Shown here: in pieces, positions 46,401-52,400 of the stretch
How positions within the stretch are numbered: the stretch's first letter is position 1
How the letters are laid out: every line of letters begins with the position of its first letter
Assembly (NCBI GenBank): GCA_036874045.1
Contig: CM072339.1
Coordinates: 5,959,501 to 6,023,500, forward strand
DNA length: 64,000 nucleotides
Reading direction: 5' to 3'
Source of the DNA: Cymodocea nodosa
Taxonomy: Eukaryota; Streptophyta; Magnoliopsida; Alismatales; Cymodoceaceae
Program-made: the position numbers and the translations under genes
Notes under the pieces: model-generated
Told to the model about the DNA's origin: nothing
What the model saw: only the letters and a program-made list of their open reading frames with translations
Database searches by the model: none

Positions 46401-49400
46401 TTTTCCTCAAATCAACATTATGGACGTCTTTTAGGAGGGAAGTTAATTGTAATAATAACCTAATGGTCAAGTTATCAAGCCAAGTTTTAGTTGAGTCAAG
46501 GCATATATTCAAGTAGTGATGCAAATAAGAGAGTGCAAGAATTGTAATATCATCTATTGAAGTTGTCTCAATTGTGCTGAGCCTGGGTGAAAGGATCAAC
46601 TTCTCAATTCCAATTTCTCACCATTGATCCACCATTTCAGCATCCATATTACTTACGATCAATCACTTGGTGAGTGAATCATCACAATTAAGAGCACCAA
46701 TAGAGGATAACATTTGGTGGCATGGACAAAGTTTAAAAAGCTAAAGGTAGAAGCTAGTTTGGGCATCAAGGACATCCAGCTTTTCAACCTAGTTTTTTTG
46801 TCCAAGTGGTTATGGGGATTAGGTGAATGAGGAGAATTTGGGAGATCATGGCAACAAGCAATTATTGGGAAATGGTACGAGGGAAGTCTAAAGCTTGGGC
46901 AAACCATTCTAAAGCAGAGTTAAGATTGTTTTTTATGCCTCATTTTATCCTTCCATTAGCAATCCATATTTTCCATTCTTGTATTGCTTTTTTCTAGTCT
47001 TCTTTCCCATTTTCCAAAGAAACCATAATAGGTTGATCCCCTTGCTTTCCTCATTATACAACCCTCTTACTGTAGAGCCCCTATTCTCCTCAATCTGCAG
47101 AGACAAAATGTAAAGTACAGTGTCAAGTGTATGGAAGGGTATCTTAGAAGTTGCATAAGTTATGTTAAGTGTGTACATTATCTACAGTAGGTAATGGTAA
47201 GTGGGGACGATTTTAGAAGGATCTTTGGGTGGAACCCTCCCATTTGAAGATGTCATGTCCTAGTCTTTTTAGAATAGTGATATCTCCCACCATGAAAAGA
47301 TTTCTATTTTTTTCCCTTCCATAGCAAGACCCATTTGGCATGTTCCTTTTCAAAGGAATCTTAGCAACTTGGAATTTTGTTGGCTTCATGAAACTCTTGA
47401 GCTTTGTAGCTGACCGGTTATACTCTAATCCAAATTGGTATAAGCAATTATGGAAGAATGTCACGTCCTCAATCAAAACGTAGACAAAAACATCAGCAAT
47501 GGTGGTACGGCCCATGAAATATGGTAGGTCAAAAGGATTTCCTCAGTTGAGTGAGATGTACACATGGGATGGGCATTCAACAATGGGGCCTCCAAACGCC
47601 CCTAATGCATTATTTATACTTACATTTAGAATATTTTATTAAAGTTGTTACTAACTAAAAATCTAACTAATCCAATTAACAAGTGTGGAATACAACATTC
47701 CTCTCCCCTTAAGATTGACAACATCCATGATAATGAGTGCAAATATTGCTAATGGAACATTGACTTGCAGCACTTGAAACATCGACTTATATTGACTTGC
47801 AGCACTTGACACATTGACTTATCAACCTCTATCTCAACATCAAAAGCTTTACAATTCTTCTCATCATGTTCAAACCCTTCCTTAAACCAATCGTAGTTTG
47901 TTGGTTCATATTTCTTGAATGGTTGTGCACCAAGGACATGAATCAAGTCATCCTAATGGAGTACCTCTTTCTCCAGCAATAGCTTTGCAATCTGGGCAAC
48001 ATGTTCTGTATTTCTTTTATCAATGCCAGTGTCTGTTCATATGCCTTTCCAATCCATGCCCTAGCTTCATTATCTATTATTGCTCCAAGCATGTTGCTGT
48101 ATGGCTTCAACATCTCAAACTTGTCTTCTCTTTGAGGAAATGAAAGAAGACCAACCTTCTCACTGAAACCATAAACTGCAACTTAGGCATGTCATCTTGG
48201 TAATATTTCTCAAGATCATTCTATGCTCCAGTTGGGATCTTTCGTATCAGAACCTTTTTTGATGCTGGGCCACCTAAAGTCGTGCATGTCATGTCAAACA
48301 ATTGTGCCTTTGTCGTTAAGGGATTTTCGTTGTGTGCCTATTGTGCATAGCCCAATGTTGCACTTCCACGAAGGACAATTGTGACTTTGAGTAAAGGCTC
48401 CTCATGTTCCAAAAACTATCTGACAATAGCATGACCTAATTCATGGTACACAACTGTTCATCGTTCCAACTTGCTAACTACCTTGTTTTTCTTTTCCAAT
48501 CCTCCAATAACTCTGTCAATGGCTGCCTCAAAATGATGAAATGTAATCTGTGTTTCATCATTTATTGTGGATACAAGAGCAACCTCATTACACACATTTG
48601 CAATATTAGCCTTAGCAACTCCAAGACCAGGGGCATTAAGCCTTTGGGAATAAAAGGATGGCTCATTGTCAAGTTTGAGCTTTTGGAGATAAATATGGAA
48701 GATCTAGTCATGACCTTTTATATCATGCTTATCTATGGCAATTTACTAATTAAATCAGCCTGGCCTCAACAGGGCCTTATCCAAAATATCTAGTCAGTTT
48801 GTCCCGGCAAGCATAACAACTCTAGATGTTGTTCCAAAACCATCCATCTCCACGAGTTATTGGTTAAAAGTGTTTTCCCAATCATCATTGGAACTTGAAA
48901 AGCCTCCACATCCCCTTGCTTGACCAATTTCATCAACAAAGATAATGCTAGGAGCACATTGCCTAGCTTCTCGGAGCAAACTCTTCACTTGAGATTGTCT
49001 GACTCCAATAAGCATTCCCATAAATTTTGAAACAGATATAGACAAAAATGAAACTCTAAATTCAGTAACAGTTGCTTTTGCAAGAAGAGTCTTTTCAATA
49101 CCAAGGGGGCCAACAAGAAGGGCACCTTGGGTATCTTAGCACCCAATTCCTCGTACTTTTTAGGATTGTTTAGAAAGCGTACAAACTCCATAATCTCTTG
49201 CTTTCTTCATCACAACTAGCAACATCTTTGAAAAATACCTTATTTTTTGAATTCCTGTCCAACTTAGTAATATGAGCTTTTCCAATATTAAAGATTCCAC
49301 AAGGACCTTAGTAGTTCCACCACCAAAACCAAAACCTCACTACATTCTTTGTGCCATGATTGCAAGAATTCCTAGCAAAAGGAGAGTTGGAGCAAATTCT

Positions 49401-52400
49401 ATGAGTTCTTGATAGCACATAACTTCAAAGACATAAGTTACAATAATAAAGTCATGAGAATCGATTCCTAAGGCTTCCTGAGCTTCTTCCAATTTCTCCT
49501 CAAATGACTCAACACTTCCAATATTGAAAAAGAACTTGTAACGGCTACCACACTTGGGAAGAATATTCACTCCACCCCCTTGTCATCATCCTTATTAATC
49601 TGAGTGTTAGTCTAGTGGTGACTTTTCACATAAACTTTTGTAACAAATTTATTCAAGATTACAATATGATCAACTAAACCAGGTTCCAATAAGTTATTTT
49701 TGAAATATTGGGAACTAATCTCTTTCTGATCGATGAGACCAATATATGAAAGGAACAATGCCAGAAAAATAAAAGGTGCAATAGAATTTTGTATCTGTCT
49801 CATTAGATTTTCCTGAAAAATCCAACCAAACTCCTCAACATTTGATTCCTATTTTGAATTAGAATTTGCTTTCTCCTCCTTTGAGATCCCCTTCTTCTCC
49901 TTGGGACAGTTGTTCTCATATTCTTCTTCTTGGGCAATTCACTCAAGAAGAGTCATTGCAACCTCAAGTTCACAAAAAAATAATTTTGTTCCACCAGCTA
50001 AATCCCTAGACATGGCACCCTTACCAGCACCAACAAGAAACATTAGATACCCTCTCAAGTTCCCCAACCTAGGAATACAACCACTTTCCTTGTGCAACCT
50101 TAAGATCGTCTTGTCCAAGAGCAACAACCTCACTGCATATCCACCAAAAAGATCAACCTTTGACTAGAATCTATTGTGCCTCCAATGAAGCCCTCTCCCT
50201 TCTTTTTCTTCTTCATATCTACTATGCCTTCTATTACAAAGGAAGGAGGTCTTAGGGCCTTCTATGGTGACAACCATGATAGTGAGAGAGATAAAACAAT
50301 GGTTGATCAACTCCGATGGTGGTGAGAGAATCTATGGATTGGTGGGCACCAGGGCAATGGTAGATGGCAGGGCAAAACCAATCACCTCCTCCTTTCTCAA
50401 GAGAAACTCATGATTGGTTGCAACCACCTTAGATTTCTTCTCTCAGGTATAGATTTTAGGAAAGTAAGCTTCTCCATCAAAACTTTCTTCACCACTAATA
50501 GGCATGGCAAACGATTTCAAATGCTCTTCTTTCGACTTCTTGGCCTTGTGGGAGATCTTGGAAGTTTTTGCAAATGATCGAACATCAACCAGAATCTCCT
50601 TCAACATTTGTAGATTTTCTTGATGCATCTCTAAGATCAACTCTTGGAAAGCATTGGGAGCCATCGATCAACCACACTAACCATTATATTTTGGCTCTGA
50701 TACCAATAGTCACATACCCAATTGAAACATCATCACCAATGATCTAGTTGATGAAATATGGACGGTGAAACTCATTGACCTTTCAATAGGCCAAAAGGAT
50801 ATTTTCGATAGAGTGAGATCTACACATGGGATGGCCATTCAACAATGGGGCTTCTAGACACCCCCTAATGCATTATTTATACTTGCATTTACAATATTTT
50901 GTTAAAGTTGTTACAACTAAAAATCTGATCAATCCAACTAACAAGTGTGGAATACAACAAAGAACAATGGCTCTTTCTTAGTTTCATCAGTTCTCAAATT
51001 TTTACATGGTGTCATAACACAGATCAATGGCACAAACAATCATGGAATGGTAAAATCCCTTCCAAAATCCAATTTTTTGCATGGCTGATATGGCAAGAAC
51101 ATGTTCCAACAAAAGATGCTTACTAGAGACAACTTGCAATTGGCTAGAAGATTTTATTTCTGCTATTCTGATTTGGACACACTTTGGCTTCTTCTTTTTC
51201 ACACACAGATATGACTAATTGGTGGGAAAATACCCAGGATTCAAATGGGATTGTTTTCACTTTGTTGCTGATTTCTGGTATGGGTGGACTGCAGACCTAC
51301 AGCAAGGAAGTAGAAAGGAGAAGGAAAATTTGGGATTTGGTTCCCCAAGTAACATGGTGGAGCAGATGGATTGAGAGGAATGCAAAAGTGCTTGATGAAG
51401 GAGCTACAGGATCTGATGTTCCCTGGACAGAGGCTGTGGTCTCTCCTAGTTGAGCAGTCTGCCCTAACAAAATGTGATAGGGAATCGAACTTGAATATGC
51501 CAACCTGGCTTAATTCAGTCATAAGCTAACATGTAGCTTGGTTGACCTTCCTTGAAGCCTACTTTTCCATTTTTCCTAGCATCTGTATTGTCTATACTTG
51601 TTAGTTGTTTGTCATCTTTACATTCCTGTTGACATGTATGAGACCTGCCTGTTGTATTGATAGCCATTTTATCTTGTTTTTGTATCCTGTTTTCATTATT
51701 AACGTTTTCTAGCATCTGTATCGTCTAGAGCTTTGCTTGTTACTTGTTTGTTATCTTTACTTTCCTATTGTCATGTATGAGACCTGCCCATTGTCCTGAT
51801 AAGCATTTGATCTTGTTTTTGTATACTGTTTTTGTTATTAAGGTATACTTCTTCTTCTCTGCCCAAAAAGATAATATGGGAAAAAAAAAATCCAATAACA
51901 TAGCCTTTCTTTTGAAAAAAAAAGCATAAACATAAAATTTTCAGACAGTATTTGTCACCAAGTGGAGAACATTTGGATATTGATGCAAATATAATGTTGC
52001 AACTGTGTAAGAAAAATTGTTTGTAACAAAAGGCTCACATGAATATAACTTAATAATAGTAAAAAAATTCTCCAAACCAATGTTTATTTGCACACTATAG
52101 ACTCACTGGAACTAGAATTGCAAAGAGAGAGTATTCACCCTGGCTATAGACTCTCTGGAAGGAGTACCAAGTAAATCAGTCATGAGATCCAACTGATGAA
52201 CCACATTTTTTCCAGGGAAAAGGGGCTTCCCTGTTAGCATCTCAGCAAATATGCACCCTATACTCCAGATATCGATAGCAGGTGTGTACTGACAAAATAT
52301 GAAGATACACTTGAAATTAGTAAATTCCAATGGCAGTGACAAAGACCAACACAAATGCTATACAGATAAATTGATTTCTGCATGAATGGACTCATTATTT

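Follow-up and report, generated by a model that had tools for sequence, protein, structure and literature searches.

Transduction of host genes by LTR elements is documented in plants, the classic case being Bs1 of maize, a low-copy element with spliced and sense-oriented cargo. Lack of poly(A) is a hallmark of LTR-mediated retroposition. Bs1 is described as an LTR element that holds fragments of three host genes (PMC13317346, PMC7264820, PMC5408686), and a review among these sources states that no Bs1 segment has a full-length ORF. LTR-mediated retroposition in animals is presented as a gain of host mRNA by template switching at microsimilarities (Tan et al. 2016, as cited in PMC5408686). LTR-captured genes were counted at 672 in rice and 1343 in sorghum, and many of the rice captures are neutrally evolving pseudogenes, according to PMC3726574.

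The window, that is, the whole 64-kb stretch of DNA that was analysed, contains an element with Bs1-like traits (spliced, sense-oriented host cDNA between LTRs; several host genes in the family, namely FtsH, MnSOD and starch synthase). In it, a non-autonomous LTR retrotransposon very probably took up a spliced mRNA of an FtsH3/10-type m-AAA protease by retroviral-style transduction.

Results

The hallmarks of an LTR retrotransposon were all present (paired LTRs, target-site duplication, primer-binding site and polypurine tract; Table 1), and alignment and exact matches bore out the first-pass annotation for all four. The sense orientation of the element is the minus strand. The primer-binding site (TGGTATCAGAGCCA), which we take to be of the initiator Met-tRNA type, had one other match in a search allowing 2 or fewer mismatches, itself with 2 mismatches (chance expectation 0.38). 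The polypurine tract (AAGGGGAGAGGAA) immediately precedes the TGTTG of the 3' LTR. The LTRs were 87.4% identical over 175 aligned bases (E 3e-52) and differed also by indels, the largest of 25 nt, in agreement with their earlier description as divergent. Within the window no further LTR copy was found, scans for Rfam families and for tRNAs gave 0 matches, and exact LTR words and exact primer-binding-site words had 0 matches each in viral contigs.

The interior of the element consists of leader, FtsH and tail, and its own gag-pol is absent; because this copy has no pol, the element is non-autonomous. The claim that FtsH lay in sense in place of gag-pol therefore held for the orientation and for the lack of gag-pol, but a leader ORF of the family (507 nt) also sits between the primer-binding site and FtsH. 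The LINE relic that adjoins the insertion was likely its target. LINE relics exist in the window.

Table 1. Coordinates of the element and of adjoining features in the window.
Feature	Positions	Strand	Remarks
Target-site duplication AAGAA, left copy	47454..47458	.	exact match to 50960-50964
3' LTR	47459..47697	-	TGTTG...TGACA on minus strand
Polypurine tract AAGGGGAGAGGAA	47698..47710	-	
Element's own 3' tail	47711..47814	-	homologous to relatives L030 and L031
32-bp tandem duplication	47759-47822		mostly within the 3' tail of the element
AGTCA microhomology (3' junction)	47815..47819	-	common to FtsH parent and family tail (L030)
Intronless FtsH3/10-type cDNA, decayed	47815..50157	-	parent exons 2-8, CDS 61-2418 of 2454 including stop
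5' junction, leader ..TCAAAG / GTTGATC	50157..50158	-	FtsH exon 2 from its first base; phase 0
Family leader ORF	50158..50664	-	169 codons, 3 stops; same frame as FtsH exon 2
Primer-binding site TGGTATCAGAGCCA	50692..50705	-	0 mismatches, 14 nt exact
5' LTR	50707..50959	-	end at 50707 uncertain by 1-2 bases
Target-site duplication AAGAA, right copy	50960..50964	.	exact
LINE relic (zf-RVT) adjoining the insertion	51016..51126	+	PF13966, E 3.5e-8, single unaltered frame

One FtsH3/10-type gene was found in the host, an intact 8-exon gene on another contig of the same assembly. Alignment of the insert to this parent, which had been proposed as a check, took in exons 2-8, or 96% of the coding sequence (2338 bases aligned, 87.7% DNA identity), with 11 indels of 1-9 bases each, 9 of which were not multiples of three. 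The parent has six introns from exon 2 to exon 8; all were missing from the insert and no intron remnants were found against the parent, as expected from the earlier description of the copy as intronless. An intron-bearing, DNA-level duplication of FtsH was rejected. Exon 1 (20 codons), the last 11 codons and the 3' UTR were absent, so that the FtsH3/10-like sequence reported between the LTRs was confirmed by homology but is incomplete at both ends. A frameshift-tolerant alignment to Nelumbo FTSH10 spanned residues 16-811 of 821 (64.9% identity), with no insertion of more than one codon; its 9 frameshifts and 17 stops agree with the broken frame noted at first. Homology to the mitochondrial m-AAA protease FtsH3/10 spans the AAA and M41 regions, as a decayed copy. 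Its product was probably a fusion of leader and FtsH in which the portion of the presequence encoded by exon 1 was lacking.

Among 120 proteins compared, the parent FtsH protein was nearest to those of Elaeis (77.8%) and Colocasia (79.0%), and in a tree the decayed copy joined Colocasia on a long branch. A PEPC fragment was nearest to Camellia and Fagus (88%; candidates limited by length). A literature search on FtsH gene structure returned nothing relevant.

Divergence between the FtsH copy and its parent was 0.132, 0.115 and 0.122 at codon positions 1, 2 and 3, respectively; the copy has decayed alike at all codon positions, with no sign of later selection. The decay was largely by C-to-T and G-to-A mutation (166 of 288 changes), 59 of 122 CpG positions were changed, and the CpG-rich exon 2 was the most diverged exon (0.213). 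The element is an old, dead retrotransposon. Dating by LTR divergence, as suggested in the first-pass annotation, gave a divided result. The ratio of FtsH divergence to that predicted from the LTRs was 1.68 when matched for composition (95% 1.23-2.48) and 1.72 at codon positions 1 and 2 (1.20-2.65); there was no FtsH excess at third positions (0.85; 0.57-1.31) or at conserved sites. The conserved-site test, which used LTR ends 5 nt short, gave an expected LTR difference of 0.156 (0.115-0.200) vs. an observed 0.116-0.173, varying by alignment scheme, and by this test FtsH and the LTRs are equally old. As the composition-matched FtsH divergence exceeded the LTR prediction, the capture may be older than the last insertion.

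Relatives in the same genome share the leader and the LTR and carry other cargo, namely spliced pieces of starch synthase and MnSOD. MnSOD was recognised by PF00081 (E 2.9e-14) and PF02777 (E 9.5e-22). The starch-synthase match, to PF08323, was weaker (E 2.9e-4; 21.1 bits vs. a cut-off of 22.7), and the assignment was backed by the parent gene, two exons of which are joined in the copies. Both pieces consist of joined exons and start within exons, and the identity of their parent genes was confirmed by Pfam. This is a small, old, non-autonomous, Bs1-like LTR family that captures genes repeatedly, and it has taken host sequence more than once.

The leader matched 0 Pfam families at E ≤ 5 and, among 164 candidate proteins of similar length, none at E ≤ 1. 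Its codon usage was weak, with 7.6% of 1000 window stretches scoring equally high. Its codon-position divergence had a third-position excess in L061 (0.242/0.285/0.370), a slight one in L031 (0.261/0.246/0.296) and none in L030 and L032. Retrotrans_gag matches in relatives were weak and below cut-off (L031, E 0.0048; L032, E 0.024), and gag was absent from the window element. A protein search with the gag-like piece of the family gave at least 76 matches (150 of 161 candidates scored). The best match outside the family was L068 (51% identity; PF19259 Ty3_capsid, 30.7 bits vs. a cut-off of 29.1), with no pol in the 1.4 kb downstream and no LTR in common with the family. The pol-bearing partner that had been anticipated was thus not identified among the gag-like matches examined (the best one outside the family, of at least 76), and no pol domains were recognised in the parts scanned, which included the interiors of L030, L031 and L036 only in part.

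Discussion

The intronless exons 2-8 of FtsH sit in sense between the family leader and the family 3' tail, and both junctions are accounted for by the element's own family sequence. The 5' homology begins precisely at base 1 of exon 2, in frame with the leader, the border of the insert being the acceptor of that exon; the 3' homology ends in AGTCA, common to the parent and a family member. This exon-border start and AGTCA end indicate that FtsH was joined during element RNA synthesis or reverse transcription and not by a later pseudogene insertion. Together with the family leader and tail at the junctions, they support the initial proposal that a read-through or template-switched RNA joined an FtsH mRNA to an LTR element.

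Under retroviral-style transduction, element RNA and FtsH RNA would have been packaged together, and minus-strand synthesis would have jumped from the 3' tail of the element to the FtsH mRNA at AGTCA. At the 5' end, either a read-through transcript would have been spliced to FtsH exon 2 or the template would have been switched a second time, and the cDNA would have been integrated at AAGAA beside the LINE relic by enzymes supplied in trans. The FtsH capture is a single event within a small LTR family whose cargo also includes cDNA pieces of starch synthase and MnSOD. The AGTCA (5 nt) is a microsimilarity of the kind expected from LTR-mediated template switching; the 5' join is ambiguous in this regard.

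Splicing at the 5' join is a possible route, if a little short of probable: the element would have been read through into the FtsH gene, and a donor-like AAAG/GTACA joined to the exon 2 acceptor, leaving the 3' join alone as a template switch. The join coincides exactly with the exon 2 border (probability by chance about 0.9% for a single capture: 7 x 3 / 2454, for 7 joins with 3 ambiguous positions each), the reading frame is kept, and AAAG/GT at the leader end is kept in three of the five relatives checked (L032, L036 and L061), but it is lost in L030 and L031, the donor consensus is presumably weak, the captured pieces of SOD and starch synthase have their start within an exon, and there was no LTR or leader match in 8 kb of sequence around the FtsH parent. 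A second template switch, onto FtsH RNA that was mature or still contained intron 1 and at a short word common to both templates, is likewise tentative and not quite probable. The leader AAAGGT resembles the mRNA AAACGT and the genomic AGGT, and the route is the one described for LTR-mediated retrocopies in PMC5408686, but it needs a coincidence with the exon border (about 1%) or retention of intron 1 alone.

It is conceivable, although doubtful, that the leader generally ends in a splice donor, and that members in or before genes splice the leader exon in frame to host exons, the 3' end being closed by template switch. If so, the family would be a natural exon trap, with an architecture favouring repeated capture of host coding sequence, and FtsH would be its cleanest product.

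That FtsH was an established passenger in a multi-copy LTR subfamily is very unlikely. In two of the four comparisons (composition-matched; codon positions 1 and 2) its divergence was higher than the LTRs would predict, but FtsH DNA was found at only two places in the 374.6-Mb assembly, the element and the parent (3 of 3 candidates scored; counts are lower bounds), which makes one chimeric copy likely and not an FtsH-carrying family. An FtsH-bearing multi-copy family was rejected on these lower-bound counts, and the element looks like a single chimeric copy; the genome search for further copies thus yielded relatives sharing LTR and leader but no second copy with FtsH. A LINE-made processed FtsH pseudogene inserted into an LTR element already in place, compatible with an intronless copy and with a window containing LINE relics, is highly improbable and was rejected, since neither of the marks that would have signalled it was found around the FtsH part, be it poly(A) (no run of more than 3 A in the final 203 bases of the interior, read in sense) or a target duplication beyond chance level (the longest word in common was 8, equalled in 199 of 500 shuffles). 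In addition, the copy lacks the 3' UTR and the last 11 codons, its 3' edge lies within microhomology to the family tail and its 5' edge falls on an exon border with the frame preserved.

Capture by transduction resembles Bs1, as far as the cited text describes it, in that host gene sequence from more than one host gene is carried in LTR elements and in a hybrid reading frame, the latter for Bs1 per the title of a cited work. Unlike in Bs1, 96% of one coding sequence was gained in a single capture, the host genes are others, FtsH is in a separate element from the other captures, and the 5' join coincides with an exon border. Incorporation of host mRNA sequence by template switching at microsimilarities is shared with LTR-mediated retroposition in animals; the plant host, the near-complete coding sequence and a family with several cargoes are differences. 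The event is of the same class as the rice and sorghum captures presented in PMC3726574; as a difference, the present case has its parent gene, its two junctions and its sister elements resolved. With these and the other cargoes in one assembly, two capture models, read-through splicing and two template switches, become testable. A low-copy plant LTR family took up three unrelated host transcripts. The phenomenon is known; this instance is new, and its junctions are unusually informative.

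Structure and age of the element

The element is a chimera, found in a single copy, of family sequence and a spliced, decayed copy of a host FtsH3/10-type gene. On the minus strand, 47459-50959 was recovered as an LTR element with all its parts in place, and the paired LTRs, AAGAA duplication, primer-binding site (PBS) and polypurine tract of the first-pass annotation were all confirmed there. AAGAA was present at the outer edges of both LTRs, and AAGGGGAGAGGAA directly preceded the 3' LTR.

Features of the FtsH-carrying element
Feature	Position	Strand	Remark
5' LTR	50707-50959	minus	
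3' LTR	47459-47697	minus	
PBS, TGGTATCAGAGCCA	50692-50705	minus	exact match
Leader ORF	ATG at 50664	minus	169 codons; in frame with FtsH exon 2

The K2P distance between the LTRs was 0.141-0.196, the range being set by gap treatment. It corresponds to 5.4 to 15.1 million years at substitution rates of 6.5e-9 to 1.3e-8, and to up to 39 million years at 2.5e-9, in agreement with the old insertion first proposed. The right flank contained a zf-RVT relic of a LINE (Pfam E 3.5e-8), and the element thus adjoins or lies within an old LINE. A 32-bp tandem duplication (47759-47822) was observed in the 3' tail, abutting the FtsH 3' junction.

The FtsH copy and its parent gene

With Nelumbo FTSH10 as query, the 374.6-Mb assembly containing the window gave 62 matches (55 of 125 candidates scored); apart from the element's own pieces, the best came from a single gene on contig C2, in which identity rose to 92% in places; at other loci it did not exceed 68%. 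This parent gene had 8 exons and an intact frame of 817 residues. With the element's FtsH DNA as query, at least 8 pieces were found, all of them in the element or in the parent (all 3 candidates scored, such counts being minimum values), and the genome-wide check therefore yielded no further FtsH-bearing copies.

Within the 2454-base parent CDS, the copy spanned bases 61-2418; identity was 87.7%, and the alignment contained 11 small indels. Exons 2-8 were joined and the six introns between them were missing, which upheld the intronless cDNA that had been proposed. When five plant FtsH proteins were aligned to the copy with frameshifts allowed, identity was 63.5-66.1% and every alignment contained 16-17 stops and 8-9 frameshifts; the frame is broken as described. 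Residues were changed at 60 of 309 sites at which 113 homologues (740-830 residues, out of 120 listed) agree.

Junctions and mode of capture

A later processed-pseudogene insertion into the element would have brought its own poly(A) and target duplication; in the FtsH part no poly(A) was found, nor did any internal target duplication exceed chance expectation.

Exon 1 is missing from the copy, homology to the parent setting in with the first base of exon 2; the sequence preceding this base, ..CTAGTCAAAG, was family sequence. Where the element enters the FtsH exon, three relatives (L032, L036 and L061) read on as AAAGGTACA.., L030 has AAGGATACA and L031 has AAAGCTACA. The leader had 3 stops over 167 codons vs a shuffle mean of 9.8 (P 0.007; P = 0.0235 when taken for the best of three frames), and its start, MAPN.., was also present in L061. 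The chance of a 5' join landing exactly on an exon border was about 0.9% for one capture and, by simple arithmetic, about 3% over the three 5' ends of the family that can be analysed. Either splicing or a second template switch may have made this join.

At the 3' end, 33 coding bases upstream of the stop codon, the parent (GACGAGTCA|TCG), the relative L030 (TCGTAGTCA|ATG) and the element (GATAAGTCA|ATG) shared a 5-nt microhomology. Element RNA and FtsH RNA would have been co-packaged, a template switch at AGTCA would have made the 3' join, and the enzymes would have been supplied in trans.

FtsH divergence matched LTR age in the conserved-site test and at third positions (ratio 0.85; 0.57-1.31), and exceeded it at codon positions 1+2 (ratio 1.72; 1.20-2.65) and in the composition-matched comparison with the parent (ratio 1.68; 1.23-2.48). 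CpG positions were changed at 59 of 122 in the copy, and such changes may inflate the latter two ratios. These values fit capture at the last insertion or moderately earlier.

Related elements and their cargoes

Of the 14 pieces found with the 3' LTR plus tail (14 of 14 candidates), 2 belong to the element itself. The leader matched at 4 places (4 of 4) and the gag-like DNA at 3 (3 of 3). Thirteen related loci were extracted with flanks (L030-L038, L058-L061). Paired LTRs were present in L030, L031, L032, L036 and L058 (K2P 0.125-0.282 over 126-248 aligned bases), and 5' LTR-like stretches plus the leader in L061. L033, L034 and L035 matched through the LTR only, L037 through the LTR and short stretches common to L031, L038 through LTR/tail and a middle segment, and L059 and L060 through the middle segment plus minor additional matches.

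In place of FtsH, L032 and L036 carried a starch-synthase piece (PF08323 E 2.9e-4, under its cut-off) and a MnSOD piece (PF00081 E 2.9e-14; PF02777 E 9.5e-22 and 8.1e-19); L031 carried part of MnSOD, and L030 a 52-base starch-synthase scrap. The parents of these two cargoes lay on contigs C5 and C14, with identity confirmed by Pfam, and their introns were absent from the captured copies. Unlike FtsH, both captures started within an exon, MnSOD in exon 1 (CDS base 139-141) and starch synthase where the parent open frame extends 160 codons further upstream. The middle segment between the two pieces recurred (L032:4890-5380, L036, L038, L058, L059, L060), L059 and L060 having little else of the element; Pfam on the scanned L032 and L058 frames matched the starch-synthase and SOD pieces only.

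Divergence of the MnSOD copies from the parent was higher at third positions (0.211, 0.179 and 0.190 in L032, L036 and L031) than at first and second positions (0.099-0.140), a substitution pattern that hints at selection on this cargo during its movement. The FtsH copy had no such third-position excess (0.132, 0.115 and 0.122 at positions 1, 2 and 3). MnSOD was 88-89% alike between L031 and L032/L036, and other interior parts about 67-76%; past selection or cargo exchange between elements is possible.

As a protein query, the gag-like piece of L031 had 76 matches, with 150 of 161 candidates scored. Outside the family the strongest was L068, whose Ty3_capsid match above cut-off suggests a Ty3-type gag in the gag-bearing relatives. 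Within the stretch scanned, L068 showed neither an LTR in common with the family nor pol, and no pol-bearing partner with the same LTRs was recovered from this match. The element itself has the MAPN-type leader in place of the L031-type gag. A gag-like stretch related to the family piece was observed 23 kb from the element (23973-24173, plus strand; E 6e-11); it contains one stop and has 54% identity across about 80 residues.

Other features of the window

The 3' part of a bacterial-type PEP carboxylase gene (PPC4) lay at 7236-9048 (plus strand), with a LINE reverse-transcriptase relic upstream (2850-3323; RVT_1, E 4.6e-8). The stretches 53124-53409 and 58042-58322 form a direct repeat with 82% identity and a spacing of about 4.9 kb; a further stretch is common to 53587-53654 and 58511-58579. 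The repeat could represent a duplication or another old pair of LTRs. Two neighbouring ORFs were observed on the plus strand: 15502-15867 had a weak At2g29880_C match (E 9.5e-5, under cut-off), and 16065-16442 had no Pfam match and presumably resembles the start of a Harbinger-type nuclease.

Comparison with known captures

No report of an LTR element with FtsH cargo, or with superoxide dismutase or starch synthase cargo, was found in the literature searched, which covered few subscription journals. Plant LTR elements are already documented to capture host genes: Bs1 carries three host genes (PMC13317346, PMC7264820, PMC5408686), captured genes number 672 in rice and 1343 in sorghum (PMC3726574), and the route described is template switching at microsimilarities (PMC5408686).
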